The position numbers and the translations under genes are program-made. From Haloquadratum walsbyi J07HQW2 (GTDB taxonomy: Archaea; Halobacteriota; Halobacteria; Halobacteriales; Haloferacaceae), in NCBI RefSeq assembly GCF_000415985.1, contig NZ_KE356561.1:3381457-3445456 (forward strand): DNA of 64,000 nucleotides. The letters run 5' to 3'. Positions 29,651 to 58,884 of this stretch are shown here, piece by piece. The notes below the pieces were generated by a model. The model saw only the letters and a list, made by a program, of their open reading frames with translations. It was not told the origin of the DNA and made no database searches. Positions within the stretch are counted from its first letter, which is position 1, and each line of letters starts with the position of its first letter.

Positions 29651-29663
29651 TATAATACAATAC

Positions 29664-36869: not shown

Positions 36870-36976
36870 CTAGGACCCCTTCCTCAAGGAGCGAGCGAAG
36901 CGAGTGAGTATGGAGGGGATACAGCGCCGTCATCATCGAAGCAATCATATACACAGAGTATATATTCCCTATCACG

Positions 36977-37102: not shown

Positions 37103-37106
37103 TATC

Positions 37107-38993: not shown

Positions 38994-40881
38994 TTAGTTA
39001 TCGTGACGAGTTACACACTGAGGAAGACCACGAACCTCTACAGCCTCCACATCTGGTGCCTTCACGATAGCCTGTCCTTTGGCAAACTTCGGGATCTCGT
39101 TGGTAAACTCACGCGGGACTGACGGAACGTCCTGAACAACTTCTCTACGAAGTTGGAGAAAAATATTCGTGTTGATCTGTTTGAGTATTTCATCATCAAT
39201 GTCATCGGGGTTCTGCGTGATTGCAAGCAGTCCGAGTAACTCTTTTCGTCCCTGCTTGGCAGCCTGCCGAGCTTTTGACACGATGTATTGCTCACGTGTA
39301 TTTGACGGTTCTGACAGAAACGTGTGAGCTTCATCGAGTGCGACCAACAATGGTGTGCCCTTGACAGCTGAATCAACCTCATAGTCTGTCAACTTGTTTT
39401 CAATGATATACGACAATAATGACAAAACGACGAGTTCCTCCTTCTTTCCACGAATATGACTCGTCGGGATAACGGTCACACGACCGGGACGGAACATCGC
39501 GTCGGTCATCTCGGTAAATGGTGCCCCCCCAGCGTCGAACACTGCGCTGTATTCTGATCGATCCACCCGCCGCATCACCGCCGACCAGGTGCGTGACGTG
39601 ATATCGTTGTCAGTGCGGAGTTGGCTACTATCGTCGTCGTGCTCCTCGAGAAAACTAATAAAATCGTCGTAGGTCGGTTCACTGACTGACCGTGACTCGA
39701 CAGCAGTGAAATACGCATTGATACATGAGACAATCGCACCACGAGTAACGTCAGACATATTATCGAACGGCATCAATAACTGTGGCTCATCGTCGACGAC
39801 ACTGAACGGAATCGACAGCTCACGTGAGGCACCTGTGTCTGGTAACCGTGTCCTGTTAACCTCAGGGACGAATATTTCGAGATCATCAATTCCGCCGAAG
39901 GCGACCCCATGTTGCCGCAATTCATTTTTGATATCCAATGAGGGGTTTTTTTCGTCTAAGCTCACCGTATTCGTTTTCAGGGTCAAAGATGATCATGCCT
40001 GCCTGTGCTCGGTCAGGGGCATCATCGATATTTACCTCAACCGGATACCGCTTCGTGTCAGCAAGCTGTCGTAGCAAATTCTTCGCAAAATGTGTCTTTC
40101 CGGTGCCTGTTGAGCCCGCAACAAGTGTGTGCCGAAACACCGCTGGTTCACCATCTTCGACATCGTTGGTCTTCGGATCGATACCAGGGTTCGAGATGTA
40201 ATACGGGAATTTTTGATCGTTGATATTTATTGGAGCTCCACCGACCGATAGATAGCCAGCGAACAGACCGTCCTGTGGGATATTAAGTCCAGTTCGTAGG
40301 TATGTGTCATTTCGAGACAATTCGGTAACAGCATTGGGCTTCGGAACGCGGTTGACCGTGTGACGGGTCACATCATCACCAGTAGAATCAAGAATTGCTA
40401 GCGGGTCTAGCTCGGCCACCTGGACAAACTCAGACTCATCAATCTCACTGCCGGACTCAATGAGGCTGTACGATTCATTCCGGTCGTCAATGTCGCTGTA
40501 GGGCTCATATCGGAGTCCTTCAACGGCAGCAAAAAGATAGGTGTCACCGTCAGGGTACGGAATCTGGACGTAGTCACCAACTTCGACCGTCTCACGTTGG
40601 TCCGGAACGACGAACACAGAGAGGTTGTGTCCTTGACGTGAAATACGAATTTGATTGCTTGCGAGTACGTGACCGATGCCTAAGTTGGAGTGGTCTATCG
40701 TCTTCTCGGGTGAGACAGTCTGCATCCCGTTGGTCATAGTGTCCACAGATCCAGAGTCGGTCACTCCACCAGTGGTGTCGCTACCATCGGATTGTGATGA
40801 GACGTCTGGATTGGTAGAACTTTCAGAACTATTGCTACTAAATGGGTCAGAATCAAGAAGTTCATTTACATCGTCAGTCAT
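38994..40881 (-). pseudogene. herA: HerA-type hexameric DNA translocase, frameshifted at a 7-base A run
   Basis: Two overlapping frames form one HerA. The 5' part has an acidic Ser-rich N-terminus, a HAS-barrel-like domain (NLGIGHVLASNQIRISRQG) and Walker A GSTGTGKTHFAKNLL; the 3' part has Walker B LVALDEAHTFL and the sensor region TQNPDDIDDEILKQINTN. The break is at the A7 run read at 39946-39952: six As would give GELRRKNPSLDIKNELRQHG without interruption. HerA pumps DNA with NurA during end resection. ATG at 40881 overlaps the nurA stop (ATGA). If the shift is real, HerA is inactive; slippage or sequencing error are alternatives. Confidence 0.82.
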
Positions 40882-42173
40882 GATAATATTCCCTCTCCAA
40901 GAAGATCTCTCCACCGACCATCTTCGTTGTGCTCGAATGTTGCATTTGACGTAGTGATCATCGCCTCTATGTCTTCACGGTTATCCCGCGTAATCTGTGC
41001 GAGTGTGTCTGCCCGCTGAATCGCTCGGGGTACGCCACGACGGGCGGCAATCTCCTTGAGTGCCTTCCATTTGACAGCTTGACGTGTAGACTCGTCTTGT
41101 ACCATCAGGTACGGCGTTTCGATGCGAAGCATGTCACCAGTTTTTGGAAGCCGACAGTAGCAGAAAGCCCGACGGTACTGTTCGGGCTCTCCATGTGACA
41201 GGCTGTCCGAGAGTGGCTCAAGCAAACGGAGTACACTGTTGCCGATTACTTGCCCCTCTGAAACGAACCAGTCAGTGAAGGTGAAGTGACTCAGATACTC
41301 ATCTTGAGCATCATAGAGCACCTGTGCGAAAAATTGCTCGTCCCGAGTCCACGGCACTGGAAGTTCACGACCGCGAGAGTCAGTCAGTCCATTTGCAGAC
41401 ACCTTCTGCCGAAGCGATTCTACTGTTTCAATTGCTGATGTTGTTTTTACAACACCAATGACTGGGTTACCAGCCGCATACTGCTGATCGATGATCTCGA
41501 CGTAATTTTCTGCGATCTTTTCTGGTAAATCCCACACAGCTGCAGGGGAGTCTTGTCCGATTTCCTCTGCCAGTAACCAATACATGATACCGAGTGGAAG
41601 CACTGAACCGTCAATGAACAGTGGACCATCTATCTGGTCGAGTGAGTCGGCAGCATGCCCCCCTTCTGCTAACTTTTGTGCGGTAGTGGACAAGGAGGTG
41701 GTTATATCACGTGTGGACGCAGTCGATGTTGGGAACCGAACGAGATCGGCATGGATATCACCCTCGCTGATTGTCTCGTCCCGAAGGGTCGCATCCGGAT
41801 TATCGTAGTACACTGCAGCTGTAATCTGGCTCGCAGTCTCAACTGACCGGTCAGCATCTGCTCCGCAGACAGCTAGCTTGGCATGTGCAATATCCAGAGC
41901 CAGTCCATTAGTGTATTCGATCGGTCGTGTAGTGCTTGCATCAATACCGTATGTCGGGCAGTCATCCCAGGGGTCGCCGGACCACGAGCCAATCTCTCCG
42001 ATGGAAATCCGCTTGTAAGCCGGATCGCCGATTGAAGATACAGTTCCATCTTCAAAATGAAGATGCTCGAAGGCAGACCGGGCTCGCTCCGTTTGCGATG
42101 GCAGATCGTCTGGAATGGCTACATCGACTGTTTGGAGCAGCTCACCAATGACAGAGAAGCTTCGCTGATCCAC
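40878..42173 (-). CDS. nurA: NurA-type 5'-3' nuclease
   Basis: A 431-residue NurA-domain protein, longer than archaeal chromosomal NurA. The active-site Asp78 sits in CPTYGIDAS, followed by the strand LALDIAHAKLAVCG; the C-terminal ETPYLMVQDESTRQAVKWKAL and GVPRAIQRADTLAQI match the end of the NurA fold. NurA digests DNA inside the complex with HerA. It starts with GTG sharing a base with the rad50 stop, and its end overlaps herA, so the four genes form one coupled operon. Appears intact. The usual second acidic motif could not be placed with certainty. Confidence 0.8.
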   Translation of the reverse strand: MDQRSFSVIGELLQTVDVAIPDDLPSQTERARSAFEHLHFEDGTVSSIGDPAYKRISIGEIGSWSGDPWDDCPTYGIDASTTRPIEYTNGLALDIAHAKLAVCGADADRSVETASQITAAVYYDNPDATLRDETISEGDIHADLVRFPTSTASTRDITTSLSTTAQKLAEGGHAADSLDQIDGPLFIDGSVLPLGIMYWLLAEEIGQDSPAAVWDLPEKIAENYVEIIDQQYAAGNPVIGVVKTTSAIETVESLRQKVSANGLTDSRGRELPVPWTRDEQFFAQVLYDAQDEYLSHFTFTDWFVSEGQVIGNSVLRLLEPLSDSLSHGEPEQYRRAFCYCRLPKTGDMLRIETPYLMVQDESTRQAVKWKALKEIAARRGVPRAIQRADTLAQITRDNREDIEAMITTSNATFEHNEDGRWRDLLGEGILS

Positions 42174-45100
42174 TAGTCATCACCACCAGTTAGCGTAGTG
42201 ATAGGGTCTTCAACAGCAGTTTTTGTAGTCGAGAGCGTAACTGAGCTTGTGTCAGTTGTCTCGTCAATTGCCACCTCGCACGTGTGGTCTGCCCCGTCTA
42301 CCAGCGACGGGTCGTGTGAGACAACGAACACCTGCGGGACATTCCAACTCTGGACGGTGTCGAGCATCCCTTCCAGTTGTGAGACATGCTCATCGTCAAG
42401 GAACGTGGTCGGCTCGTCTAGGATGAGCGGAGGCAACTCAGCCGTGTTCCCGCCCTGCAACTCAGCAATCAGGCGGTAGAGACCAGTCCGAAGCGCGAGA
42501 TTGATTAGAGCCCGCTCACCACCGGATGCGTTGCTTGGATCTTCCATCACTCCGTCATCGCGTTGTAATTTGATTGAATAATCCAGCCGATTACTTCGAG
42601 AGCGCTCTTGTTCGTCAATGACGATTCGCTGATATGCGGTATTCGTGTACAGCGAGTCGAACACGTCGCGGACGTATCGGTTGAGGTACGCAAGGTACTC
42701 GGAACGCAGTTCAGACTTCACCGATTCGTACATTGTGAGGAGTCGATCAAACTCAGCGTGCCGTTGGTTCGCCCACTCAGCCCGTTGTTCGTACGCTTCG
42801 ATACGAGCTTTCAAATCTTGCAATTGATTACGCTGCTGTATCAATTGGACTCGTCGTTCGTTAAGTTTACTCCGCTCGTTCCGTTTATTCTCAAGATTCC
42901 CCTCAATCTCAGAAATTTTCTGAGTAAGATCCTTTTTTGCTTCCTCTAACTCATCTACATTCACCCCACCCATCTCGTCAAGTATGTCTTCGCGTTCACT
43001 CTCGAGGGTCGCAATCTCCTCGGTCAGTGAGTTGACTTTATCTGACAATTCCTGCAATTTGTCCTGTTTGTTGTCCAACTTCTGTGCAAGCGATTCCCGG
43101 TCGCCGTATAGGTCTACGATGGTCTCGAGTGGATCGACCTCGTTTTGCTCGATTGAGCTCGCTTCCTCGCGGAGTTGCGACACTGTTGCCTCCTGTGCTG
43201 ACTTTTGATTCTTCAAATCATCAACATTCTCACGTTTCGCTTCAATCTCGCTATCGAGATCACTTACCCGTGGTTCAAGCTCTTCCTCCAGTTCTGTCGT
43301 AATTCTCTCTACCTCGTCTTGGTATAGTTGACGGGAGTTGTATAGTTCCACGAGTTGGCTCATGTCACCCCGAAGTTCCTGAAGCGTCTCAAGTTGACTG
43401 GATAATTCCGGAATGACATTTTGTTTCTCTCTCAGGTCAGTTTCCGTGTCTTGGATCTGCTCTCGAATCTCCTCGACAGCTTTCTTTGCTTCTTGCAGGT
43501 CAGACTGAGCGTCAGCCAACCGACTTTCCGCACGGTCCTGTTCGGATTTTGCGGTCGATAGCTCACGGGTGGCATCTGACACTTCTTGCCGGAAGAACGT
43601 GGTCAATTCCTCCAAAGATGCCTGGAGGTCACTCACAGAGCTCTCCTCAGATGATAGGCGGTCGATCCGATCTCGAACCGAATCCAGCTGGTTCGAAACC
43701 CTGTCGTGTTCTTTTTCGAGAGTCGCAATCTCCTCAGAGACGTGATCGCCGTCAACAGGCTGACGACACTGTGGACACTTGCCCTCGTCACCGAGTTTAT
43801 CCAGCTCCGAGATGTCGTCTTCCAGTTGTTGAAGTTTAGCCTCTAGATTAACCCGCTGGTCTTTGGCGTCCTGAAGATCATCTTGGATCGAGTTTCGTTC
43901 CTGTTGAACGGTGTTATCAACCGCCATTTTTGCGGCAGGAGTCGTGCTCAGATCTAAATTCTCTACACTTGTGGTTTGAAGAGATACATCTAATGATATG
44001 CCGAGTCTGTCGGCTGTGTCAGTCAGTGCATCCCATCGGTGTTGGTATTCTTCAAACAGCGTTTCAGCTCGGCTCCGCGTTGCCGATAATGTAGACTCTT
44101 TTTTCTCGACCATTTCACGAGCAGACTCAACTTCGGTCTCCTCAGTGCGCACTGTCTCCTCGGCTGATTGAAGTTGATCCTGACGTGTGCTGATAGTGGT
44201 TTGAAGACTCGTGACAGCGTCTTCTTCTTCTGATAGCTCTTCTTCAACTGACGAAATCTGCTCGTCCAGTCGTGAGCGTGGGTCACCGTTAGGAAGTTTG
44301 TCCCAGTCCGGCACTTGCTCGACCCCACTCAGATCTACGTTCTCGGCGGTGCTGATCGTGGGCACGTATCGGACCAGTTGCTCGTAGACATCCGGAGCAA
44401 GGTCATTGATCCGTACAGAAAACTGCTCGATTTGTTCGTCCATCTGTTCGAGTTCAGCTTCAGTCTCCGCAATCTTTTCCTCAATTTCCTGTTGATTATC
44501 TTCCAGTGTGCCTAATTCCCGCTGTTCATCCTGCAATTCTAACTTGATATCTTGGAGCGTTTCACGTTCGTTGATGACTCTATCCTCAATTGTTGATACT
44601 TTGTCCCGAGCCTGATCGAGTGAGTCCATAGCCCCCTCTCGTGTAGATACGTCCCAGTCAAGTCCCTCTGCATGGGATTGGATTTCGGAATCGCGTTCGG
44701 ATAGACGGTCGGACAAGCTATCAACCTCATCGGAGACTTTCGACTGATTCTGCTGGTGTTGTGCCCGTTCGTCCCTACACTCATCGATCTCTTGTTTCAA
44801 ATCTTCAGTTTGCTCAGCAAGGTCATCGTAGCTGGAAATTTGACTTGTCACCTCATCGTGGCGATCTTCGAGCGTGTCCAGATAGTCTTCGCCCTCTGTA
44901 ATTTTTGACTCGATGGTGCTGATACGTGACTGCAGTTGCCCGATTTCGGATTCAAACTCACTGACATCACGGTCAAACTGCACATCAATGTTATCTCGAC
45001 GTGACTCTGCGTTGCTACTTGCGTTGTCCTCCACACGCCCAGCAGCACGGCGGGCTTGTTTCACACGCTCAATGTAGGTGTCAATCTGGTCTAGCCCGAG

Positions 45101-45579
45101 TAACCCGTCGATCATCTCAGCCCGATTATTTGCTTTGATCAATCGGTCAATGCCTCCCTGTTGCACGTACACAGAATTCACGAAGTCATCGGCACTCATT
45201 CCAAGCAAGGACGTGACTTTGCTTGCGACAGCTCGGACTCCGGAGACAGGGTTGGTCAGTGCAGGCGACCGCAGTTCAGCGGTACTGGCCGTGGAAGTCG
45301 TGTATATCTCCCAGAGTGCGGTATACTCGACGCCATCCACAGTAAAACCAAGTTCGATTTCGCCTTTATTCTCGCCGCGACGGACGAACCCATCAAGATT
45401 GAACGAGTGGCACCGGCACTGGTGATTTTTGACTGGTATAGCCCACCGAAGATGGACATCAATAACGAAGTCTTGCCAGCACCATTCTCACCGTGAATGA
45501 GTACAGATCCTTCTGGAAAGGTAATCGTCTCACTGTCATAGCTACGGATATTCTTAATACGAAGTGAGGTAATTTTCAT
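42173..45579 (-). pseudogene. rad50: Rad50-type SMC ATPase, frameshifted near the N-terminus
   Basis: The first about 60 codons (from 45579) encode KITSLRIKNIRSYDSETI and Walker A GENGAGKTS. The frame is then lost near 45398; one base over, the protein continues NLDGFVRRGENKGEIELGF and runs intact to 42173. It carries Q-loop YVQQGG, long coiled coils, a zinc hook CPQC, signature NASGGERALIN and Walker B LPPLILDEPTTFLDDEH. Rad50 with Mre11 tethers and processes DNA ends. A one-base change separates Walker A from the rest. Both edges overlap neighbouring genes. Very recent damage or a sequence error are both possible. Confidence 0.85.
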
Positions 45580-46778
45580 TTATTTCCTCTCTCTGTCGTG
45601 AGGATATCATCGTGTGCGGTATTCATTGCGGTCTCTATGTCCTCTTGAATATCATCGGCGAGCCCAGTGCTTGCTGGGGAACCCGTGCGGAGGTCTGACT
45701 CAATCTCGGTCACAACGGCACTCACGTCTAGCTTTTCGATACGCGATTCAATCCGATGGTCGATACTTTCAGCGTTACCTGTCGGTCCCTCTGTTGGGTC
45801 TAGTTCGGGTCCCCCACGCTGATCTTTGACTTGGCACACTGCCGCTCCCTTGTCGAGTGCAACCTTTCGAACGTCTCGGGAGGACGTGGCAGTCGGTTCG
45901 CCAGCGAGGGTAATTTCCACGACACCATCAGCGAAGTTATGTTGGTTAAGAACATCTACTACGTGCTCAAGCATATCGCCCTCATCAAACTGTACCTGAA
46001 TGTCATGAAACGGGCGTGTGTCGAGTGGGAGTCGAGTGCGTGTGAGAGTAGCGTCCTCAATTTCAAGTAACTGAACGGAGCGTTGGTCCTGCTGATCGCT
46101 GGCAGTTCGTTCAGTTGACCCGGGATACCAAACCTCGATACCGTCCACTCGGTCACTTCGAGGCGTGTGATCGTCACCAAGTGCAATCGCATCGAGATCA
46201 ATATCAAGACGATTGAGCACATCGGTCAGCTCATGATCGGCTTCAATCTCTGGAAGTGGTGGCGCAAGTAGTTCGTGCATGGTTAATATGTTGAAGCAGT
46301 CACCCGGCGGTTCAGCGAGATCGAACTCACGATTGTTCCACACAGGCTGTGGGACACTGTCAATCCCATACAGAGCAACGTCACCATTGATCACGGTTGG
46401 CTCGTCATCAAGACGATCAGCCACATCAGTTTCATGGATTAGGTCAAGATGCTGAACATCTTGTTTTCGCTCGTGATTCCCGACGATTCCATAGAAGGGG
46501 ATATCATTAGCAGACAACTCGTGGAGGGTGCTGATGCAGGCTAACAATACAGTGTTAGGCGGGTTGCGCATGTCGAACAAATCCCCAGTGTGAATCACTG
46601 CATCAACATCGTGTTCGATAGCTAGATCAACTCCCTGAGAGAAGGCAGCAAGAAAGTCGGTTCGTCTGAGGTCACTTCGGTATTGTCTATATCCGAGATG
46701 TGTGTCAGAAATATGAAGGATTCTGGTTTGGCTGGCACCGCCATGTGCTGATTGATCGGCATGATCACTAGTTGCCAT
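45576..46778 (-). CDS. mre11: Mre11-type nuclease
   Basis: A 400-residue metallophosphoesterase of the Mre11/SbcD group. Phosphodiesterase motifs: HISDTHLG, IHTGDLFD, YGIVGNHERK and TMHELLAPP. The last motif reads LGDDHTP where GHxH is usual, so one metal-binding His is replaced by Asp. The C-terminal cap region is shortened and acidic. Mre11 cleaves DNA ends with Rad50. I chose ATG at 46778 (MATSDHAD); 46793 adds five residues. The stop overlaps the rad50 start as ATGA. It opens the mre11-rad50-nurA-herA operon. Confidence 0.88.
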   Translation of the reverse strand: MATSDHADQSAHGGASQTRILHISDTHLGYRQYRSDLRRTDFLAAFSQGVDLAIEHDVDAVIHTGDLFDMRNPPNTVLLACISTLHELSANDIPFYGIVGNHERKQDVQHLDLIHETDVADRLDDEPTVINGDVALYGIDSVPQPVWNNREFDLAEPPGDCFNILTMHELLAPPLPEIEADHELTDVLNRLDIDLDAIALGDDHTPRSDRVDGIEVWYPGSTERTASDQQDQRSVQLLEIEDATLTRTRLPLDTRPFHDIQVQFDEGDMLEHVVDVLNQHNFADGVVEITLAGEPTATSSRDVRKVALDKGAAVCQVKDQRGGPELDPTEGPTGNAESIDHRIESRIEKLDVSAVVTEIESDLRTGSPASTGLADDIQEDIETAMNTAHDDILTTERGNK

Positions 46779-47975
46779 TTGAGAGTATATCACATTGATA
46801 TTTGGTCATATTTAAATCATTATGTACTTTGAGATTATGTCGAACTACGCCAGTAGGCGTACTCACGGCGTATGATTGAGCTGAGGATTAGTCTACAGAC
46901 TTAGAGGGAGAATGCCTCCGAGGTTGTTCACGGTATTATACGATGATGATATGGCATCGTGTCGTCGACCGAGTTTCGACGGTCTCAGCGGCGAGTCTGT
47001 CGTCGATATGATTCGGAATATCAATTTGACGTCATAATACAACAATATTCTCATCGATCGTCATGCATCCACCTGTGCTCTCTCTCAATTAAATTATCCC
47101 CAATTGGTATTCTGATGGCGTCGAGATATGGTAGAGTCATGAGTGTGTATGTATCCTCCCCTTCCCGAGGATACAGAGACGATCGTGACGAGGATTCGTA
47201 ATGAGTTGTGATTCTGAGAACCCAGGCTGCGAAGAGTCGACTATCAGTCCGACTATCCAAGTAATTGAATCAGTTGCTCAACAAAACTAGTGTTATGAGA
47301 GTCTGATATGTATTTACAACTCGAAAACGGGGGGTGTCCGACTATTCGAGTTCACCTATCTGTGTTGATCTTGGTTTTGTATTTGGAGTCCGCCCCGCCG
47401 TTTTGTCTAATACCAGTAATTCGATTACCGCTGACTCACTTGACCGCAATTACCGTTGTTCCATACACGTTGTTCGGGATAGCACTCAGTCGGTTTTGTA
47501 TTTCTTTTTCATGTGCACGATTCATAACTACTTTTTTCGATTTTCGTGTCTGTCTACCTGCATGTGCGCAAATTTACGTCTCATATGCTAACGAAATGTT
47601 TGAATGTGGATATAACGACTCTATCACGTAAGAACATCCGTATAAATACAATCATCATGAAAATAATAACTATGTCTGAAATATCAGTAGGTTTGCATTA
47701 TAATTTTCAATTGATATAATGATAGTATTTATGATTATTTCATCAAAATGTAATAACAACCGTACCTATATTATATCATCAGTCGCTCTGTGACAGCCCT
47801 TCCAGGATCGACAATCGCCACCAGTATGAGTAATAAATCAATCCGATATATCATCAACCATAGTCCGAATTTGTCCTTGAACAGCAGTCCATATGTGATT
47901 CTTGATCAAGTTTCAAAAATATATAATTGGAATACGGTAACATTCAGACTATGTACATCTTAGATCACGATTCCA
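46779..47975. other. 1.2-kb gene-free stretch left of mre11
   Basis: No credible gene on either strand. It contains the mre11 promoter side (AT-rich 46785-46830) and one ORB-like box at 47314-47339. The region 47640-47980 is AT-rich and featureless. Confidence 0.55.
47314..47339 (+). repeat. Fourth ORB-like box
   Basis: TTACAACTCGAAAACGGGGG followed by GTGTCC matches the triple array at 36633-36741, about 10.6 kb away and in the same orientation. Confidence 0.7.
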
Positions 47976-49952
47976 TTACGTGCTGTGGAGTGCAAGACCG
48001 TCTTCTTCGATGTACAACTGCTCAGCAGCGTCAGTCGACTCCAGACGATCGAATGCCCGCTTGACGATGTGTGACTCGAAATCGTGGTCTGTCGTGATTT
48101 CCTCTGCAAACACCGTATCCCGACCAAGTGAATCAAGATATTCATTCCGGACTATCGATACACACTTGTGAAGTTTTTCTGCGGATATCGCCCGCTCAAA
48201 CAGCTCAATGTTATCGGTCAGCAGCGGGTCAGATTTATTATAAATCAGACTCCCGTCTCGAAGGTCGACGAAACAAACACTCACGTACTGGCTGTAATGT
48301 GTCCGGGCGAACTCAGTATCATCGACGTGCTCATGAACCCGGTCTGTCCAACCAGTTGGTGAAGCGATCCCTACGATATGGTGGACCTGTTGACGCTCTG
48401 CTTCTCGAACAATCTCACCCACAATGTCTAATACGTCGTCGAGACCAGTCGGCAACCCGTCGAATCCATTCGTCGCGTACGCTTCGAGGTGAGAGTACAC
48501 ACTTGCATGGATAACCAACTCACGCGTTCGACTGAGACCCATGTAAGCACTCTTCGTTACTTCGTATCGTGAGGTCTGGTTTGTCGGATACGCACCCACG
48601 TCTTCCTCCTCCTTGTCGTCTAACAGCGATTTCATCTGTGGTTCCTGATTCTGCCGGACATTTCGACTACTCCAGTATCCCTCTGGCACGGTAAACTCTC
48701 TCTCTGGGAGCGTGATACAATCGGCTTCCCGAATTGAGGTGTCAAATCGACCGATATAATCCATCTCGAACAGCGCAGCTGTGCTCGCAGTGACCACATT
48801 TTCTCCACGAATCCCGTTAATATCACCGGCAGAAGTATTCAGATTGTCGATCCGTCGTTCCAGCTCTGCCTGCCGTCGTTGAACCCGGTCCCGTGACGCC
48901 GTCATCTCTTCACGTCCACGCTGAAGCTGATTAACTTGCTCATAAAGTTCGTTTCGCTTATTATCAATTCTTTCTAGCTCGGCATCAAGCATTTGTGTGG
49001 CTTCTTTTCGCGTGGCTGGTCGCTCTGCGCGTGAACTTTCTTTACGGGCGGTCTCAAGCGCCTGCCTCGTCTCATTGAGTTTATCTGTGAGTTCTTGAAC
49101 CCGTTCGATTCCTGCGTCAAGTTCGTCGACCGGCACACTCCCTAATTCTTCAGTCGAATCGAGTCGGTCTTTGAGTTCTGTCGCCTCAGCTGTTCCCCCT
49201 GCGAGTTCTGCTTCGATATCACGGAGTTCGGCGTCGATTTGACTTTTTCGTTGAAGATACTCGTCTCCAATTGACTCTGATAGTCGCTTGACCTCTTTGG
49301 TAACATCCGTGGTTACCTGTTCACGAGTTTCGGTCGCGTCTGCGACGGCTTCCACAGCCGACTCAATCTGTTCGACCATGTGCTCTAATCCATGAGCCTC
49401 AACATAAGTGAAAAAACCCTGTCGGATTCGCTCGTGACGGTCTTCATACCGCTCAACGAGCCGATCAATGACATCTTGTTGGACATTGGGGTTCTGGATG
49501 AGCTGATCCATGTCGCCAATCTGGGTCGATGTATACTCCTGAACGAGTTCGTACACTTCTCCTTCCATGCGACGTATTTGCTTGTTGATCTGTTCCTGAT
49601 CAAGTATGTCAAACTGTTTGTACCGATCGAAGTCGACGACAGCTTGCAGCTCGGCCTCAATGAAGTCATTATCAAGTGACTGTGGGACTGTCGCGTCGGC
49701 ATAGAAACTCGCAGCGATCAATAGCCGTGCTAATCGGCAGTCACCACGAACGCGGTCTTCCTCTGATGTGGTGAGGAAATCCGGGCAGTCCCGCCCATAC
49801 TCGTAGATCAATTCCTGTTCATTCGCCTTGATATCATTGTACCGCTCGATACGTGCGCGTTCTGGCATCCGCCCTAGTGCAGCGAGGTCCTCGTCAAGAA
49901 TCTGTTGAGCGGTATATGTGAGCTCTGTGAGGTAACTCTGGCAATCGGTCAT
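47976..49952 (-). CDS. Unrecognised coiled-coil protein (658 aa)
   Basis: The N-terminal 190 residues are helical (ELTYTAQQILDEDLAALGRMPERARI), residues about 195-370 form long coiled coils (KESSRAERPATRKEATQMLDAE and similar), and residues about 380-600 form an alpha/beta domain with FEMDYIGRFD, ELVIHASVYSHLEAYA, HHIVGIASPTGWTD and YVSVCFVDLRDGSLIYN. The end resembles a winged helix. I do not recognise the family. The alpha/beta part, with alternating acidic residues on strands, could be a nuclease or nucleotide sensor, but no clear motif supports either. It overlaps the upstream 174-aa gene (ATGA), so they act together, next to the Mre11-Rad50 operon. Confidence 0.6.
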   Translation of the reverse strand: MTDCQSYLTELTYTAQQILDEDLAALGRMPERARIERYNDIKANEQELIYEYGRDCPDFLTTSEEDRVRGDCRLARLLIAASFYADATVPQSLDNDFIEAELQAVVDFDRYKQFDILDQEQINKQIRRMEGEVYELVQEYTSTQIGDMDQLIQNPNVQQDVIDRLVERYEDRHERIRQGFFTYVEAHGLEHMVEQIESAVEAVADATETREQVTTDVTKEVKRLSESIGDEYLQRKSQIDAELRDIEAELAGGTAEATELKDRLDSTEELGSVPVDELDAGIERVQELTDKLNETRQALETARKESSRAERPATRKEATQMLDAELERIDNKRNELYEQVNQLQRGREEMTASRDRVQRRQAELERRIDNLNTSAGDINGIRGENVVTASTAALFEMDYIGRFDTSIREADCITLPEREFTVPEGYWSSRNVRQNQEPQMKSLLDDKEEEDVGAYPTNQTSRYEVTKSAYMGLSRTRELVIHASVYSHLEAYATNGFDGLPTGLDDVLDIVGEIVREAERQQVHHIVGIASPTGWTDRVHEHVDDTEFARTHYSQYVSVCFVDLRDGSLIYNKSDPLLTDNIELFERAISAEKLHKCVSIVRNEYLDSLGRDTVFAEEITTDHDFESHIVKRAFDRLESTDAAEQLYIEEDGLALHST

Positions 49953-50473
49953 GGCTGTTGTGATTGGCTCTCAGCGTAATTCGTCAGTTCGGTCTCGAAA
50001 AAGTCTCTGAGGAACGTTGGTGCCGGGTCGTGACCGATGATACTAATCTCAACAGTCACGTTACCCTCAGCCTCGGTGAGCGTGTACGACACAGTGGCGC
50101 GCCCCTTCTTAGTATACACCTCATATTCGTTGTGTTTTGCCGACTGTAGTCCAGCCTTTTTTTTGGAAAACATGTACTGGATGAACGACTCAATCGCCTC
50201 AACCGGGGCGGCAATGGTCTGACTCACCCGGACCGTCATTGGTTCGACGCTGGTGTCGGCTGACTCAAGTTCGTACGCAGATACGCGCTCTGCTGGGACT
50301 TTGTTGATTAATTGCTTATATAACTCATCATGAGCTGCGCCCTCTGCGACGCGAACGAGTCCCTCTGGTCGGTCGACAGTCCCGTCGACCCAATTATCAA
50401 ATAGATACTCGACTCGCTTGCGCTCTGCATCACTCTCGTATTCGACTGCGTAGAGATATCGATCAGATCCCAT
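49949..50473 (-). CDS. Unrecognised 174-aa protein
   Basis: A small alpha/beta protein. The first 75 residues (YLYAVEYESDAERKRVEYLFDNW) look like a compact domain. The second half (VRVSQTIAAPVEAIESFIQYM, then RATVSYTLTEAEGNVTVEISIIG) has the strand and helix pattern of a START/SRPBCC-like ligand fold, a weak impression only. Its stop overlaps the 658-aa gene start, so the two are coupled. The upstream side faces the Snf7-like gene with a shared 306-base promoter region. Function unknown. Confidence 0.6.
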   Translation of the reverse strand: MGSDRYLYAVEYESDAERKRVEYLFDNWVDGTVDRPEGLVRVAEGAAHDELYKQLINKVPAERVSAYELESADTSVEPMTVRVSQTIAAPVEAIESFIQYMFSKKKAGLQSAKHNEYEVYTKKGRATVSYTLTEAEGNVTVEISIIGHDPAPTFLRDFFETELTNYAESQSQQP

Positions 50474-50779
50474 CGCTCTTGTCCATATCGACTCCCCGGG
50501 AGGGAGTTAGTCTCCACATCGTACCGTATCGGGTGTCGATCTTTGACACAACCCTGGATTTAGTGCCAAGCTACAAATAACTACCTCCAAGTCCCCAGGA
50601 TATCCGAGTGGGGACAGTGGCATATCTACTAACTCGTCAAAATACTAGTATAGTGATTCGTCCATTTTGGAGAGAATTCTAGACAGTCAGTTGGTAGAAA
50701 TATTTATACTACCGGCGAAAGATATCTAGCTGAAGTCACATTTTCCAACACGTCAATGTAGGCGGGCAATCATCAACAC
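50474..50779. promoter_or_regulatory. Divergent promoter region
   Basis: 306 bases between divergent operons. AAATATTTATACTACC near 50698-50713 is a good TATA box for the rightward operon, leaving a 5' leader of about 40-50 bases before ATG 50780. Leftward promoter elements are not clear. The shared region would allow coordinated control of both operons. Confidence 0.45.
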
Positions 50780-51448
50780 ATGTCAATAACAGATTGGATC
50801 AACGACCGATTCGGCTCAGACAGTACGACGACACTGCTGGACGAGAGCGTGTATAGCGATAGAGAACTCCGGAAAGACAAAGCAAAGCTCGAGCAGGGTC
50901 TCAGACAGACAGAGCAAAAGCTCGAAGAACACAATCAGCAGTACCAGAAATTACTTAGAGAAGGTGCTGAGGCCGACGAGATGCGTCGCCGGGTATACGC
51001 TAAGAAGGCAAAGCTGGAAAAAAAGAAGTACGAAATGAAGAAGCGAGAGTACAAGGCAAACAGTGTCAAGCTTGGAACGATCATTTCGGTCGAAGGAATG
51101 CGAGACGTGCTCGACACGGCAGACTCTGAGGTCAACCTCTCCGAACACATCCGAGATGCCGATACTTCCCAGCTACAGGGACGAATCATGGATCAGATGG
51201 CGGAATTTGGGCTAGAGATGGAAGATATGCAGCAAGTTGAGGAGGCACTCGACGTACCAATTCTCGACGATGATCTCGAAGACGGTGCAAGCGAGGAACT
51301 AGAGATGATGGAACGAATGGCAGCCGGCAGTGTCTCTGACGAGCAAGTCGACATTGAAGACGAACTGGATGCCAATTCAATGGAAGCCGACGAGACAGAG
51401 GAGCTGGTAGATATTGAAGATGATTTCGAAGGCACTCCAGATGTCTGA
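50780..51448 (+). CDS. ESCRT-III/Snf7-like coiled-coil protein (CdvB-like)
   Basis: A 222-residue protein. A basic, charged helical hairpin at about 30-105 (RELRKDKAKLEQGLRQTEQK; AKKAKLEKKKYEMKKREYKA) is followed by shorter helices (VEGMRDVLDTADSEVNLSEHI; LQGRIMDQMAEFGLEMEDM) and a strongly acidic tail (ELVDIEDDFEGTPDV). Basic hairpin, mid helices and acidic C-terminal tail match ESCRT-III/Snf7 topology, where the tail carries the MIT-binding motif. The very next gene, 11 bases on, encodes an MIT-AAA ATPase, which is the normal ESCRT partner. This is a topology and context call, not an alignment. ESCRT-III filaments remodel membranes. Confidence 0.55.
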   Translation: MSITDWINDRFGSDSTTTLLDESVYSDRELRKDKAKLEQGLRQTEQKLEEHNQQYQKLLREGAEADEMRRRVYAKKAKLEKKKYEMKKREYKANSVKLGTIISVEGMRDVLDTADSEVNLSEHIRDADTSQLQGRIMDQMAEFGLEMEDMQQVEEALDVPILDDDLEDGASEELEMMERMAAGSVSDEQVDIEDELDANSMEADETEELVDIEDDFEGTPDV

Positions 51449-51459
51449 ACTAGTCTATC

Positions 51460-52614
51460 ATGTCTTTAGAGCGTAGCGCACAGAAAGAGTATTTTGAATC
51501 CGAATACAAACGATATCGTAAGCAGGCTGAAGCGGCTCGGCAGAATGGCAAAGCCAGTACCGCGGCGACATACTACGAGCAGTGTGCTGATGCCCTCAAA
51601 GAGTTAGCGGAGCTCGAAACGACAGACACGCTGGCTCAAGAGCGACGCAACCTCGCGTCGAATCTGACAAAAGCTGCAAAGAAACTGAGTCGGGACGGAA
51701 GCCTACGATCTGCAGACGACGAGACTGAAAACCCCGGTATGACCGACAGCCAGACGGGAACACACTCGGGACGCTCTCCGGATGCTGGTAATGAAGAGTC
51801 CGAGACAGATGCAGATATGTATCTTGAGGCGCCGCCGGAGATGGGGTTTGGCGACGTCGGCGGGATGACCGAACTCAAGCAAACGCTTCGAGACCAGGTG
51901 ATCGATCCGCTGGAACGACCGGAGTTGTATGAAGAATACGAATTGGGTATAGTGAACGGACTTCTATTGCACGGACCTCCAGGGACGGGCAAGACATATG
52001 TCACCGAAGCGCTGGCTGGCGAATTATCATACAATTATGTCAATGTGCAAGCCTCGGAAGTCACGAGTTCGCTCGTCGGTGAAGCAGCCGAAAATATGGC
52101 AGAACTGTTTCGCGTTGCTCGAGATAATCAGCCGTGTCTACTCTTTTTTGACGAGATTGAGGCGATCGCTAGCGAGCGGAGTGGTGGGTCACAAAAGACG
52201 ATGAGTGAAAGCCAGATGATCACGCAGTTTCTCACAGAGATGTCTGAAATGAAAGGTGAAGATGTGGTGATTGTTGGTGCGACCAATCTCCCGGACGATA
52301 TCGATGGGGCAGCGTGGCGGCGGTTCGACGAGCGAATTGAGGTCCCACCGCCGGATGCGACTGCCCGCGCAGCAATCCTTCGAGTACATCTTCGGGAGCG
52401 ACCCGTACTCACCGATAGCATCGATTGGACGGAAATCAAAGATCAGACCGAGGGATACTCGGCGAGCGATCTCGAGCTGATTGCATCGAAAGCGGCACGA
52501 AAGGCACTTCAGCAGGCTCGTGATTCAGATGACATCGTGCCGATTAGTCAGTCGCATCTCGAGACTGCAATAGCTGAGACGGCATCAAGTCTAGATGCTT
52601 GGGATGACACATGA
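51460..52614 (+). CDS. Vps4/CdvC-like AAA ATPase with MIT-like N-terminus
   Basis: A 384-residue ATPase. Residues 1-78 form a three-helix, MIT-like bundle (KRYRKQAEAARQNGKASTAATYYEQCADALKELAEL). After a linker comes a classic AAA module: GDVGGMTELKQTL, Walker A GPPGTGKT (172-179), Walker B LLFFDEIEA (Asp231, Glu232), sensor 1 GATNLP (Asn276), arginine fingers WRRFDER (287/288) and a C-terminal small domain (GYSASDLELIASKAARKAL). It matches CdvC/Vps4 or proteasome-like AAA proteins; the MIT-like region and neighbour favour Vps4. Its stop overlaps the FHA-like gene by four bases, so it belongs to one operon. Confidence 0.78.
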   Translation: MSLERSAQKEYFESEYKRYRKQAEAARQNGKASTAATYYEQCADALKELAELETTDTLAQERRNLASNLTKAAKKLSRDGSLRSADDETENPGMTDSQTGTHSGRSPDAGNEESETDADMYLEAPPEMGFGDVGGMTELKQTLRDQVIDPLERPELYEEYELGIVNGLLLHGPPGTGKTYVTEALAGELSYNYVNVQASEVTSSLVGEAAENMAELFRVARDNQPCLLFFDEIEAIASERSGGSQKTMSESQMITQFLTEMSEMKGEDVVIVGATNLPDDIDGAAWRRFDERIEVPPPDATARAAILRVHLRERPVLTDSIDWTEIKDQTEGYSASDLELIASKAARKALQQARDSDDIVPISQSHLETAIAETASSLDAWDDT

Positions 52615-53348
52615 GACGGTATCTGACATTGAAGCAAGATGCCTCGGTGAGCGACGCTGTTCAGCAAGTACCGATCGACGAGACAGTTGGTGTCTACAGG
52701 ATCGCCGATGGGACGCACAGTATCGTCGCAGAGACAAGTGAGGAGGTAATCGACTTAGGAGTTCGTGATGCGGCTGTCTCTCGAAAGCACGATGGAGAAG
52801 CCCCAGTACAGTTCGAGTCTATAGATGAAGGGATTCGAATAAATAATCAGACCAGTACGAACCCAGTGACGGTCCGACAGCGCAGTCGTGACATAGACCT
52901 CACGAATGGCGAACAACTGGTTGTAGAGAACAGTTGTGTCGTCTCACTCGGTATCACGACTGATGTCCGTGCCACTGCCGAGCGTGATTGTGACACGCTT
53001 TCGAGAGACCAACTTGCTGATCTCCTCGACATGGAGGCAGATGGTGGAGTGATGCGAGGTGTCGAACCGGCGGCTCACGCCTCTTCACTGGCGACAAATC
53101 TTCGACAGGCAAGCCAAACCTCTGTTACAGAAGCACAAAAATGGGTTACTGAAATTCAGAACTTTGTCGAAAACAACACACGCACTGACCCCGACTATGA
53201 TAAGATCTTGACTGAGCTCCGAACCACGCGTGACCAGCTGAATGCGAAAATCAGTGGACCATTGAGTGGGAGTGACTTGGACGAAGAACGGCAAAATGAG
53301 TTGGAACTGATTGCCGCTCGTGTTGAGAATCTTTACGCCCGCAAGTAA
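52611..53348 (+). CDS. FHA-like domain protein
   Basis: A 245-residue protein. Residues about 25-115 match a forkhead-associated beta sandwich: GVYRIADGT (first strands), AAVSRKH (the Ser-Arg-x-His phosphothreonine-binding loop; Ser57, Arg58, His60), RINNQTSTNPVTV (the Asn-containing loop) and LTNGEQLVVENSCVVSLG. The remaining half is helical (SRDQLADLLDMEADGG; WVTEIQNFVENNT). FHA domains bind phosphothreonine peptides made by Ser/Thr kinases; such a kinase is encoded convergently 0.6 kb away. It shares an operon with the Snf7/Vps4-like pair, so it may recruit phosphorylated partners to them. Confidence 0.68.
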   Translation: MRRYLTLKQDASVSDAVQQVPIDETVGVYRIADGTHSIVAETSEEVIDLGVRDAAVSRKHDGEAPVQFESIDEGIRINNQTSTNPVTVRQRSRDIDLTNGEQLVVENSCVVSLGITTDVRATAERDCDTLSRDQLADLLDMEADGGVMRGVEPAAHASSLATNLRQASQTSVTEAQKWVTEIQNFVENNTRTDPDYDKILTELRTTRDQLNAKISGPLSGSDLDEERQNELELIAARVENLYARK

Positions 53349-53925: not shown

Positions 53926-56900
53926 CTACTCACGGGACACCTTGGTATCGGCATCTATCTTGAGTTGCGGACGGTTGTCATATTCGTCGACCTTGATTCC
54001 GCTCAGCTGGTATGCTGTCCCCTGAGTGAGTGTTTCTACAGACTCGCTTTCACCGTCACCTGAGACAACGTAGTTGAATTCATAGCCGTTTTTCAGTCGC
54101 AGAGTCCCGAGTTGTTCGATTTCCCATCTACTCCGTTGTGCCGTGCTCTTGGCGACACACTCGATATTGACCCTATCGCAGTCTGTGTTGAACGGGACAT
54201 GAACTGTCTCGATGAATTCCTCGATATCAGTGATGAACGGCGACACAGCGGCTGAGTCGGTCTGGATATCAAGTCGATCTTTCGTTCGCGTAATTGCCAC
54301 GTAGAAAAGACGGCGTTCCTCAGCTAGTTTCGTTTCTTGTGGATCGACGACTTTCGTCAGCTGATTGCCGTTCCCGGTGCTGGGAAACCCGTCGGACCGA
54401 TTGGCTGCTGCGTTGGCAATGATCACGTGTTCCGCCTCAGTTCCTTTTGCACTGTGGGCAGTTGTTACCCGGACACCATCCGAATCTCCGATAGGAATCC
54501 CACGGTCCTCTAGACCTTCCCGAATCTCTCTCATAAACCGTGATCCACGCTCGTTACGTGCGATTACCAGAATTTCATCGGGAGAGCGCCCGGCTTTAGA
54601 CACCGACTCACCGACTAACTGACAAATACAATGGACTCCGTTGGTAACATACTGGAACTCGTCTTGCCCACCGACGCGGTGGACCGTTGGGATTGTTTCT
54701 GCCGACGATTCAGCCTCCAGTGATTTCGGCACTACGCCTGAGCGTTCGGACATTAATCTGTTACTTGCATCGACGACCGCCGGAGGGCACCGATAGTTGA
54801 CAGTCAACTCTGTGGTTTCCGCGGGACTAAAGTTGTCTTCGAAGTCAGTGAAATATTCTGGTCGAGCTCCTCTGAACCCATTTATACTCTGCCAGTCGTC
54901 GCCAACGGCATACAGATGTGGGCGGTCGTTTATATTCAGTAGTTCCTGAACCATCCGGATTTGCGCCCTATCGAGATCTTGGAACTCGTCAATCAAGAAG
55001 TGGTCATAATTGAACTCTGTAGAAACCACTCCTTCGGTTAGTAGGTCCACGGCTTCAAGAATCATGTCCTCATAGTCTAGTGCATCGTATCGATCATACG
55101 TATCCTGATACACATTCAAGAGAATAGCTGCCGCGTGGCTGAAGTGATACACCATCGGGTCTTCCTCTTTGTCGAGTCGTTCGAGATCAGAGGGCTCAAA
55201 CCCAGTGCTCTTGGCTTTCTTAACGAACTCACTCAACGCCTCTTCTACCTCTGTTATAGTCTTGACATGTGTGTACGCAGCGTTGATCTGGTCGCGCTCA
55301 CTTCTGCGAGAAGACATATCGACTCCCTGGGTGTCAAGTTTCGCTCGAATCAACTTCGGAATCGTCTCAAGACTGTGATCATCACCGTGTATGGCTATCA
55401 CTTTCCGGTCAGGATGTGCCTGTTGTTGGGCCTGCCGGCTTAATTTCAGCGTTTGCTTTTTATTATACTGATCTTTTTGAGATTGAACTCTTGAGGATGG
55501 ATAGTACTCGATCGTGACATTCTGATCTGGGAGTGTAAAATCGGGGATGACGGTTTCATCGGACATCTCTCGAACCGCTGCGTCGAACTGTCGGTATCTA
55601 TACTCGATGCCATACTCAAATAACATATCAGCAATCTTTCTATGCGCATCACGCTCCTGATGAGCTGTTGGATCGAGGGTTTCTCCACGTCGGGTCTTTG
55701 AGGAACTGTATTTGAGCGATTCGACGTACTGCTTCTGTTCCTGATGATCCATGGAAAGTTGCTCGCTCTGCCAGGCCTCTTGGAACTGCTCATAGTGATG
55801 TCGGAACGTTGGATCCTCATCCAGAAGCTGGCGTCGGTATCGCCCAATCTCCCGCATCCGCTGCACATTCACCAGCGTTGTGTGGTCAGGATTTGCTTTC
55901 CGCGTTATCTTCCCTCCCATCGAGTGGAGTGTCCGAGCGTCGATATTTGTGATTCCGAAGAGGTCATTGATTCGCGATGAGATCTCACTTGCAGCGTCTC
56001 GATTGAACGACAGAGCCAAAATTCGGTCTGGTGGCGTCCCCTTGTCGACGAGGTACTTTGCCCGGCAGGCCAGTGAAAATGTTTTACCTGTCCCTGGACC
56101 TGCAATTACCCGGTTATGTACTTCGTTCGTCATCACAGCCACGTTTTGTGAATCGTTGAGCGTCAGCTCTTCATTTCCCAGCCCTGAGAACGTGTTATTA
56201 AATCGATCGAGTTCCTGATTGAGGAACTGCTCGTTATACTCGTGAACACGCGATTCGAGCGAATCGAGAGTTGTATCGATTTCGGCATATGCCGCTTTAT
56301 CAACTTCCGCGAGCGGTTCCAGTCGTGGCGAGGTGTTTTCGAACGAGGTTCGAACGGTCTCGATGGATTCGAGACATTGCCTAGCTTCGGCGTCCGTGAG
56401 GTAGTGATCCATATCTAGCGTGTCATCAATCGTCACAGAACACTCTCTCAGCTCTGTCTCTAGCCGCTCATAAACCCCTTCAAAATCAGACTTAGCTCTG
56501 ATGAACGTTTCAGCTGCCTGTAATTCACTCTGAAACGTGGTAATCTGTTCCCTCTGAGGGTCAGTGAGATACTCGGGTGCACGTGTCTCCTGGAACTCGG
56601 CGAGACGAGACTGACCTCTCTCGATTTCCGACTGGAGTTCATCTAAATTAACCGGAAGTGGAGCACCCTCCTGTCGAGCGTCTTGGAGAGCGGCGTTCAC
56701 TCGCTCGATAATCGGCTCGATGTCTGCAATCAGCGTCGCTACCCGAGATTGTGCAATATTCGGGTTGTTGTCTGTCACCTGAGAGCGCAACGAGGCTTCC
56801 GTCTCTACCATGGTGTCGAGCTGACGGAGATCAGCATCTGAGAGCGGCTCCGTGCGAAGCTGCTGTCGCACGGTTCGCAATGACTGGCTGATTTCATTTA

Positions 56901-58593
56901 GAGACGACATCATCTCGTCTTCTTGATCTGTGGTGAGCAACTGACCCTCAGAGAGAGTAGTATCGACACTCTCTGTCGCTGACTCGAGTTTTGGACCGAT
57001 TGTCTCGACCGCTTGAGTGAGCTTATATTTCGAACGAAGGTACTGTTCATACTCGTGAAGATCTGCACAGAGTGTCTCAATGGTCCGCTGTTCGCTCGCC
57101 CGTAGGTAGTCCCGGCTTTCCCCCAATAGCCCGCCCAGATCAGTCTGTAACCGTTCGAGCCTCCGAGCGGTCTCGTTAGCGTCGTCGGCGAATGCTTCAC
57201 CGAGCAACTGGGCGTTGTAGGCCTCCTCTTCAATGAGATGGCGCTGTTCGCGGGCTTCTGTCCGCAGTTCATCGAACTGAGATTTACAATCGTCGCGGCG
57301 AGTCTCAGCTGACTCGATATCGGCTTCGAGTGTGGCAAAGAACAGCCCCCGTAGAAAATCCGGACAAATAGCGTAGGTTCTCCGGTTTTTTCGTTCATCG
57401 AGTCGCTCGCGAGTCTTCTCCCATGATCCGACACTATCGGCGCGGTCGGCAGCGGATTCATCATTAGATTGGTCGTGTTGGGTGGTATCTGTCGCCGCTG
57501 ACCTTGTCTCAGAGACCGCCTGTGAAGCTTCATTCAGTCCGGTATTATGGTGGTTCATAGAGGATCCTGTCGATATCCCGACATTTTTACCGTACACGTC
57601 ACGTAATCCGTCAAGTTCGTCTCGGAGATACACGATGGTATCGTATCGGGCAGTCTTTGACTGCTGGATAGCGGGCATCAGAACCTCGTCGAATGCCTCT
57701 GGGACATCCGCACGATGACTCGGCGGAATGGGATCAGTTGTGAGTTTGTGTTGTCTGATCGTCGCTGCGTCACCGTCAAATGGTAGCTTGCCAGTGACCA
57801 ATCGATACACGAGTGTCCCCACCTGGTAGAGGTCCGTCGATTGGTCTGGCTGACCAAAACTATCAGAATCTAACTGTTCTGGGGCTGCATAGGACACGGT
57901 CATATCCTGGTGGTCTATCGTATCCATTAGAGTCTTAGCACTGCCCCAGTCGCCGATCTTGGGGAACGGCCATCGTCCGTTCGTCTGTCTAAATAGAATA
58001 TTCCCCGGTTTGATATCCTGATGTACAACTCCGTTCTGGTGTGCATGCAAGAGTGCCCGACAGACACTGTATCCGATCCACAGCGCCTGTTCCAGCGGGA
58101 GATCTCCACTTTCCAATCTCGTGGCGAGACTCCCTCCGTCCATGTACTCTAATGCGAGCCACGGCACAGGTGAGTCGCTCCATTCGATTACATCAACAAT
58201 GTGGTCTCCAGCACTGATCGTATCAGCGTTGTCTGCTGATTCGACTGCGCTAAGCGCCGCCCATTTCTCGGCTCTCTCAGAAAACCGCTCGGCAAATGCT
58301 GCCGAGATTGTTTGATCAGTCGCTGGTTGCTTGATTGCTAGCGGAGTCGTGGAGTTCCCATGTTGCACCTCGACGCGATAAATGTCGTACAATTCTGACG
58401 TGTGGATCGGTTGCGTGTCAGCCGTCGAAATCATCTTGTAACTGACAGACATTTCTGGACATCGAGGGGCGGTCGTTGGTTGACCGGTCCCACTCAGTCC
58501 TGGCATATGACACGTATTCCAGTTTGAGTGGTATGTATCCATCGACAGATTACCGTTTGGTGGTTGTTTGAAATGGTACCCAGCTACACTCAT
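53926..58593 (-). CDS. Fusion protein: Ser/Thr protein kinase, coiled coil and UvrD-type SF1 helicase
   Basis: About 1555 residues. Residues 60-345 are a protein kinase: Lys88 in LAIKQP, VVHQDIKPGNILF (catalytic Asp193), DWG in place of DFG (Asp215) and SYAAPEQL. Residues about 400-800 are coiled coil. Residues about 810-1460 are a UvrD-like helicase: Walker A GPGTGKT (832-838), Walker B LIDEFQDLD, AVGDDWQSINGFRG, NYRCP, TTAHSAKGTEAEHV and FYVAITRTKDRL, with a nuclease-like insertion (VIPDFTLPDQNVTIEYY) as in helicase IV relatives. A beta-rich tail ends the protein. The start is uncertain: 58593 is chosen because the first 30 possible residues look non-coding; 58542 is also possible. It probably links signalling to DNA-end processing. 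Confidence 0.85.
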   Translation of the reverse strand: MSVAGYHFKQPPNGNLSMDTYHSNWNTCHMPGLSGTGQPTTAPRCPEMSVSYKMISTADTQPIHTSELYDIYRVEVQHGNSTTPLAIKQPATDQTISAAFAERFSERAEKWAALSAVESADNADTISAGDHIVDVIEWSDSPVPWLALEYMDGGSLATRLESGDLPLEQALWIGYSVCRALLHAHQNGVVHQDIKPGNILFRQTNGRWPFPKIGDWGSAKTLMDTIDHQDMTVSYAAPEQLDSDSFGQPDQSTDLYQVGTLVYRLVTGKLPFDGDAATIRQHKLTTDPIPPSHRADVPEAFDEVLMPAIQQSKTARYDTIVYLRDELDGLRDVYGKNVGISTGSSMNHHNTGLNEASQAVSETRSAATDTTQHDQSNDESAADRADSVGSWEKTRERLDERKNRRTYAICPDFLRGLFFATLEADIESAETRRDDCKSQFDELRTEAREQRHLIEEEAYNAQLLGEAFADDANETARRLERLQTDLGGLLGESRDYLRASEQRTIETLCADLHEYEQYLRSKYKLTQAVETIGPKLESATESVDTTLSEGQLLTTDQEDEMMSSLNEISQSLRTVRQQLRTEPLSDADLRQLDTMVETEASLRSQVTDNNPNIAQSRVATLIADIEPIIERVNAALQDARQEGAPLPVNLDELQSEIERGQSRLAEFQETRAPEYLTDPQREQITTFQSELQAAETFIRAKSDFEGVYERLETELRECSVTIDDTLDMDHYLTDAEARQCLESIETVRTSFENTSPRLEPLAEVDKAAYAEIDTTLDSLESRVHEYNEQFLNQELDRFNNTFSGLGNEELTLNDSQNVAVMTNEVHNRVIAGPGTGKTFSLACRAKYLVDKGTPPDRILALSFNRDAASEISSRINDLFGITNIDARTLHSMGGKITRKANPDHTTLVNVQRMREIGRYRRQLLDEDPTFRHHYEQFQEAWQSEQLSMDHQEQKQYVESLKYSSSKTRRGETLDPTAHQERDAHRKIADMLFEYGIEYRYRQFDAAVREMSDETVIPDFTLPDQNVTIEYYPSSRVQSQKDQYNKKQTLKLSRQAQQQAHPDRKVIAIHGDDHSLETIPKLIRAKLDTQGVDMSSRRSERDQINAAYTHVKTITEVEEALSEFVKKAKSTGFEPSDLERLDKEEDPMVYHFSHAAAILLNVYQDTYDRYDALDYEDMILEAVDLLTEGVVSTEFNYDHFLIDEFQDLDRAQIRMVQELLNINDRPHLYAVGDDWQSINGFRGARPEYFTDFEDNFSPAETTELTVNYRCPPAVVDASNRLMSERSGVVPKSLEAESSAETIPTVHRVGGQDEFQYVTNGVHCICQLVGESVSKAGRSPDEILVIARNERGSRFMREIREGLEDRGIPIGDSDGVRVTTAHSAKGTEAEHVIIANAAANRSDGFPSTGNGNQLTKVVDPQETKLAEERRLFYVAITRTKDRLDIQTDSAAVSPFITDIEEFIETVHVPFNTDCDRVNIECVAKSTAQRSRWEIEQLGTLRLKNGYEFNYVVSGDGESESVETLTQGTAYQLSGIKVDEYDNRPQLKIDADTKVSRE

Positions 58594-58884
58594 CTTTCTG
58601 TGTATTAAGGGCTTGAAACACAATCCCATCAGGCGGCGAAGCGACGACTTCGCGGCGAATACTAGGAGCAACAGGTGCCTCACTAGAGACTACATCGTTG
58701 GTCGGTCCTGGTTTCCAGTTAGAGTGACTGATGCGTGGCTAAGTCGGTAGAACGGTTACCAATGATTCGCTGAGCAGTCAGTGCTGGGCATGATAGTCGA
58801 TCATTTCTATCTGAACTAATTATTCCAGTCAAATCGCTATGACATATCAAGAAGTATTATTATCTAGTAATATAATCAACTAAT

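Follow-up and report, generated by a model that had tools for sequence, protein, structure and literature searches.

A probable haloarchaeal ESCRT system of the Halo_FHA type in Haloquadratum walsbyi J07HQW2

A stretch of 64,000 nucleotides of the Haloquadratum walsbyi J07HQW2 genome (contig NZ_KE356561.1, positions 3,381,457 to 3,445,456; hereafter the window) carries two genes whose products resemble ESCRT-III and Vps4. The endosomal sorting complexes required for transport (ESCRT) machinery pinches membranes in our own cells. A sequence-only reading had described the two genes as a co-directed pair 11 bases apart, and open reading frames (ORFs) were indeed found at 50780-51448 and 51460-52614. 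The cluster proved to be larger than this pair, with four further members: an FHA gene, a kinase gene and a divergent pair designated D1 and D2. The locus probably encodes an ESCRT system of the Halo_FHA type, which has been published for haloarchaea. Its features are as follows, with positions counted within the window.

50780..51448, plus strand: ESCRT-III-like protein (protein 1), 222 amino acids (aa); short N-terminal helix, alpha1-alpha2 hairpin at residues 27-113, small helices and acidic tail
51460..52614, plus strand: Vps4-like AAA ATPase, 384 aa; MIT-like N-terminus (residues ~8-78), linker and one AAA domain
52611..53348, plus strand: FHA-domain protein, 245 aa; FHA beta sandwich at 1-125 and C-terminal four-helix bundle at 150-245
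53926..58683, minus strand: serine/threonine kinase-UvrD helicase, 1585 aa in one open frame; kinase at ~70-365, coiled coil, and UvrD-family helicase at ~840-1490
50474..50779, no strand: intergenic region of 306 bases between two divergent operons
49949..50473, minus strand: D1, 174 aa, first gene of the divergent operon; fits the description of arCOG08177
47976..49952, minus strand: D2, 658 aa, helical and coiled-coil with a globular C-terminal half; fits the description of arCOG09748 and overlaps D1 by 4 bases

The charges of protein 1 agree with the basic hairpin and acidic tail of the sequence-only reading, as helix 2 is basic (residues 67-113, net +8) next to a neutral helix 1, and the tail (residues 161-222) has a net charge of -26. 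The AlphaFold2 model showed a short N-terminal helix, a hairpin (27-64 and 67-113), short helices and a disordered acidic tail. Its mean predicted local distance difference test score (pLDDT) was 62, with values of 84-91 at residues 31-70 and 76-83 at residues 71-110 and low values past the hairpin. As modeled, protein 1 has the layout of the ESCRT-III superfamily, which is a short N-terminal helix, an alpha1-alpha2 hairpin and shorter helices. A conserved helix, EExExMEEMAAG, also lies within the acidic tail, and this is a candidate MIT-interacting motif.

Profile comparisons pointed in the same direction. With a phylum-wide profile of protein 1, built from Halobacteria and other classes, CdvB was the top sequence among 177,635 in the PDB (E of 0.024). 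In hhalign, the protein 1 profile reached a P of 0.00044 against haloarchaeal PspA and 0.002 against CdvB. For comparison, the accepted homologues CdvB and PspA gave a P of 0.08 with each other, and shuffled or reversed CdvB profiles gave 0.08-0.94. The similarity of protein 1 to known ESCRT-III members therefore exceeds the CdvB-PspA control and is weak in absolute terms, and we regard it as supportive, not conclusive. Protein 1 had no plasmid match, and a pattern scan of the genome contigs with its alignment gave no relatives. Scans of protein 1 and the ATPase with Pfam, NCBIfam and PADLOC gave generic AAA matches plus a sub-threshold CdvC match only.

The ATPase appears catalytically complete. 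Its single AAA domain has an intact Walker A (172-179), Walker B (227-232), sensor (N276), arginine fingers and a Vps4-like RRFDER motif (287-292), judging from these conserved residues. The N-terminus was aligned by hhalign with the CdvC alignment in a co-linear manner, columns 8-71 to 8-71, with a P of 3.7e-5 (0.0057 for the reversed control). Against the PDB, the N-terminal profile matched the MIT chains of Sulfolobus Vps4/CdvC (E of 0.005-0.04), beside a designed coiled coil and TPR proteins. The NCBIfam CdvC model covers residues 10-351, including the MIT-like region, with a score far below its cut-off. These alignments argue for an MIT-like domain, as the sequence-only reading had suggested. 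The ATPase fell in a distinct haloarchaeal clade (support 95/99, and 100/100 in a second tree) that the trees do not separate from Cdc48 or PAN; a grouping with the proteasome-type AAA proteins, the outcome against which that reading had warned, did not emerge.

Homologues of protein 1 were found in 24 of 391 Halobacteria genomes and 16 of 86 genera, the weakest matches being marginal. Of the 19 haloarchaeal neighborhoods examined that hold a protein 1 homologue, 17 have the ATPase next to it; therefore, the arrangement is not due to chance. In the haloarchaeal neighborhoods fetched, the FHA gene, D1 and D2 are found repeatedly, kinases are present in most loci, and several loci are flanked by PP2C phosphatases and Band_7/SPFH proteins. 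No phosphatase was seen beside the operon at this locus. Across the phylum, independent profiles placed protein 1 in 22 and D1 in 38 of 393 genomes, with 20 in common and mostly within a few kb; the P of 4e-21 for this co-occurrence is indicative, since related genomes are not independent. In other classes, the loci contain ESCRT-III, Vps4, D1, D2 and a kinase, and the FHA gene was not found in the non-halobacterial loci examined.

Some loci depart from this arrangement. Two of them, L050 (9123-10331) and L051 (9073-10281), encode a 402-aa protein 1 homologue with an extra C-terminal domain and without Vps4. This gene is divergent from that for a 948-aa Tubulin_2 (PF13809) protein, giving a pair of ESCRT-III and a tubulin-like protein. 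Two others, L056 and L057, have two protein 1 paralogues near Vps4, and no FHA, D1 or D2 genes were detected there; these are possibly a further haloarchaeal ESCRT variant.

The start of the FHA gene overlaps the stop of the ATPase gene by 4 bases, and the gene is probably in the same operon as the pair. The model of its product was confident (pLDDT of 82), in which four helices come after a beta sandwich, and Foldseek matched it to the FHA domains of Ki67, MDC1, APLF and Sulfolobus ArnA with a probability of 1.00. The helices matched 2j9w (annotated as ESCRT-I-II link), which we take to be the Vps28 C-terminal domain, at rank 46 with a probability of 1.00, an E of 0.11 and a target TM-score of 0.67. 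A sequence profile of the C-terminal bundle found designed bundles and chance matches only, and Vps28 was absent. Since four-helix bundles match easily and the profile misses Vps28, the likeness is a lead resting on one Foldseek match. The FHA proteins of L045-L047 have zinc ribbons at the end, and a comparable helical domain sits there in a different, helical-repeat protein; this recurrence fits a docking role. It is conceivable, and on balance doubtful, that the FHA protein unites a whole phospho-cargo adaptor in one chain, its FHA domain reading phosphothreonine and its tail being a genuine Vps28-C-type module for docking. In that case, phosphorylation would feed ESCRT in haloarchaea as ubiquitin does in eukaryotes. 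The Vps28-C-like tail, as seen in the model, is possibly new here. A limited similarity to CdvA has been reported for the C-terminus of the FHA protein (Makarova et al. 2024, PMC10936438), and we found it weak by hhalign (P of 0.04-0.21).

The kinase-helicase gene occupies the place of the kinase in other ESCRT loci. A search of 242 Halobacteria genomes found no second protein in which a single stretch matched the kinase as well as the UvrD part. One genome (G207) encodes a 1186-aa protein that matches residues 415-1583 of the fusion and is without the kinase, and 9 of the 12 kinase-only matches, among the matches listed, lie within 20 kb of a protein 1 homologue. Most simply, the kinase of the ESCRT locus would have become fused to a helicase in this lineage. 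No helicase is mentioned in the main text of Makarova et al. 2024 (PMC10936438), and the fusion is possibly new here. The helicase half of the gene (53926-58683, minus strand) also has an insertion of ~170 aa between UvrD motifs that looks by eye like a PD-(D/E)xK-type nuclease.

On the other side of the intergenic region, D1 is kept across the phylum beside ESCRT-III and Vps4. The assignments of D1 and D2 to arCOG08177 and arCOG09748 are by description, position and composition only. A TATA-like stretch, ATATTTATAC, lies ~70-80 bases before the ESCRT-III start and is a putative promoter element. A second, frame-broken copy of D1 lies outside the window in the same genome (C1:3101239-3101726; L180 8240-8740) with no other ESCRT genes near, and it is probably a remnant.

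The assignment to the Halo_FHA type draws on the conserved gene set, the predicted FHA fold, the MIT-like N-terminus on a Vps4-type ATPase with intact catalytic motifs, and the hairpin protein with its acidic tail. Several results weigh against it. The Pfam Snf7 profile had no match in protein 1 or any of 17 homologues, Pfam MIT scored the ATPase N-terminus at 12.6 bits, below its cut-off, and the third gene product had no Pfam FHA match. The coiled-coil control CdvA reached a P of 0.009 against one protein 1 profile, and a coiled-coil bias in the similarity is therefore possible. Foldseek with the protein 1 model gave nothing significant (E > 0.3); CdvB2, Vipp1, Asgard ESCRT-IIIB and CHMP2A-CHMP3 appeared, all with an E of at least 1, among designed helical bundles. 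The AAA-domain tree left the ATPase clade unseparated from Cdc48 or PAN, also with long-branch rows removed, with a support of 62/8 for Vps4 monophyly and with Cdc48-D2 and PAN groupings not rejected (approximately unbiased p of 0.51 and 0.35). Finally, no experimental data for the Halo_FHA clade were found. Of the checks that the sequence-only reading had proposed, the structural one yielded the hairpin and no significant likeness to CdvB-type folds, and the hidden Markov model search left Snf7 and MIT short of their cut-offs. The silence of Snf7 is uninformative because the profile was also below cut-off in the control, Sulfolobus acidocaldarius, which has a genuine CdvB. The reading of the genes as an ESCRT-III/Vps4 pair held up, through the MIT-CdvC similarity, the CdvB and PspA scores above control, the conserved synteny and the published haloarchaeal clade.

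The best surviving alternative, which we consider improbable, is a soluble, phospho-regulated AAA unfoldase or remodeling complex that is not membrane-associated, with the hairpin protein as an adaptor or substrate and not an ESCRT-III polymer. The lack of a curated Snf7 match, the unsettled placement of the AAA domain and a weak helical-hairpin similarity that is partly common to CdvA would all fit such a complex. However, CdvB is the best PDB sequence match, the PspA and CdvB profile scores beat the known-homologue control, the MIT region matches CdvC, and SPFH membrane proteins occur in related loci. Ranking below it, and quite unlikely, is a PspA/Vipp1-type envelope-stress system, in which the hairpin protein would be a diverged PspA patching damaged membranes and the ATPase a specialized partner. 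The haloarchaeal protein 1 profile does score best against PspA, but PspA/Vipp1 and ESCRT-III are homologous and form one superfamily (PMC8281802), so this likeness does not refute the ESCRT reading. The Pfam PspA profile also finds a single PspA in the genome, at C1:1521841-1522518, and does not recover protein 1, whose tail is acidic and whose partner is an MIT-AAA protein; PspA is near-universal in Halobacteria (56 of 59), in contrast to the patchy protein 1. The outcome of a PspA-like or unrelated coiled coil, which the sequence-only reading had set against itself, did not occur. A role in membrane sealing or transfer within a defense or DNA-repair island, acting with Mre11, Rad50, HerA and NurA, is very unlikely: such genes lie in the window at 38994-46793 and the helicase-kinase fusion is distantly similar to GajB/PD-T4-6, but none of the other 20 neighborhoods has an Mre11 or Rad50 homologue, the PADLOC matches are generic (AAA, kinase and UvrD) and the GC content of the window equals that of the rest of the genome. 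A genomic island by GC content was likewise rejected (0.49 in the window, 0.45-0.53 in other parts of the genome).

Other genes in the window were recorded as well. On the minus strand, 38994-46793 holds HerA-like, NurA, Rad50-like and Mre11-like genes in a row, which are far under the standard haloarchaeal Mre11/Rad50 cut-offs. HerA is split across the overlapping ORFs 38994-39986 and 39922-40914, which suggests a frameshift. On the plus strand, an Orc1/Cdc6-like gene with a TnpB-type (OrfB_IS605) gene after it at 35214-38369 hints at an integrated-element history. Also on the plus strand, 24854-31822 encodes a 1064-aa protein with homing-endonuclease-associated repeats and DpnI_C, then a ResIII/DEAD helicase and an SMC-like AAA_23 protein, a possible restriction or defense cluster.

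In a Halo_FHA system, the kinase would phosphorylate cargo or a system component, and the FHA domain would bind phosphothreonine. The C-terminal helical bundle would connect the FHA protein with the other components, and D1 and D2 may serve as bridging factors. The ESCRT-III protein would polymerize on the cytoplasmic membrane and deform it, and Vps4, using its MIT domain to hold the acidic tail, would take the polymer apart, completing budding or scission. The sequence-only reading had assumed that haloarchaea normally divide with FtsZ, and FtsZ/tubulin-family genes were found in the genome. Because of these genes, the product is likely vesicle formation, protein sorting or membrane repair and not division; together with the patchy distribution, they argue against an essential division role, and a cell division role was rejected. 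The conserved partners, which are FHA, kinases, phosphatases and SPFH proteins, point to phospho-regulated membrane remodeling; the DNA-repair or defense setting that had been proposed is not supported. The locus offers independent evidence that salt-loving archaea with FtsZ-family genes can also possess a full ESCRT module linked to kinases and to proteins that read phosphothreonine. Some Halobacteria are genetically tractable, and loci of this sort could make it possible to test what ESCRT does apart from division and whether phosphorylation can label proteins for sorting, in the part that ubiquitin later took over. A system of this kind was described in 2024, and the value added here lies in the candidate Vps28-like docking domain and the kinase-helicase fusion.

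Among known systems, PspA/Vipp1 shares the ESCRT-III superfamily hairpin (profile P of 0.00044 to protein 1), whereas protein 1 is missed by the PspA profile, ends in an acidic tail and is paired with an AAA ATPase of its own that bears an MIT-like domain. The CdvABC system of Sulfolobales has the same logic of MIT-AAA (CdvC) and ESCRT-III (CdvB), with weak sequence similarity of both proteins, but here protein 1 is without a winged-helix tail, there is no recognizable CdvA and the host has FtsZ-family genes. The Halo_adaptin clade was rejected since the N-terminus of the ATPase is MIT-like, not the VAT-N described for that clade. Makarova et al. 2024 (PMC10936438) described a "Main" euryarchaeal ESCRT clade with arCOG09748 and arCOG08177 proteins. 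The set of D1, D2, ESCRT-III, Vps4 and kinase in other classes resembles it, and the protein 1 profiles match with a P of 4e-23; unlike here, no FHA gene was found in those loci, and the Vps4 clades are separate in the tree. The same study defined the Halo_FHA clade of haloarchaeal systems, with Vps4, ESCRT-III and the FHA protein arCOG13166, and with kinases, phosphatases, arCOG09748 and arCOG08177 proteins in some loci, and proposed that phosphorylated cargo is recognized (PMC10936438). Our locus differs in the fusion of the kinase to a UvrD-family helicase and in that no phosphatase was seen beside the operon. It shares with that clade a Vps4 with MIT, an adjoining ESCRT-III, the FHA protein, a kinase and D1/D2-type genes, the arCOGs being assigned by description and position. 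Since it matches the Halo_FHA and "Main" systems, the finding is right, but systems of this kind were already on record.
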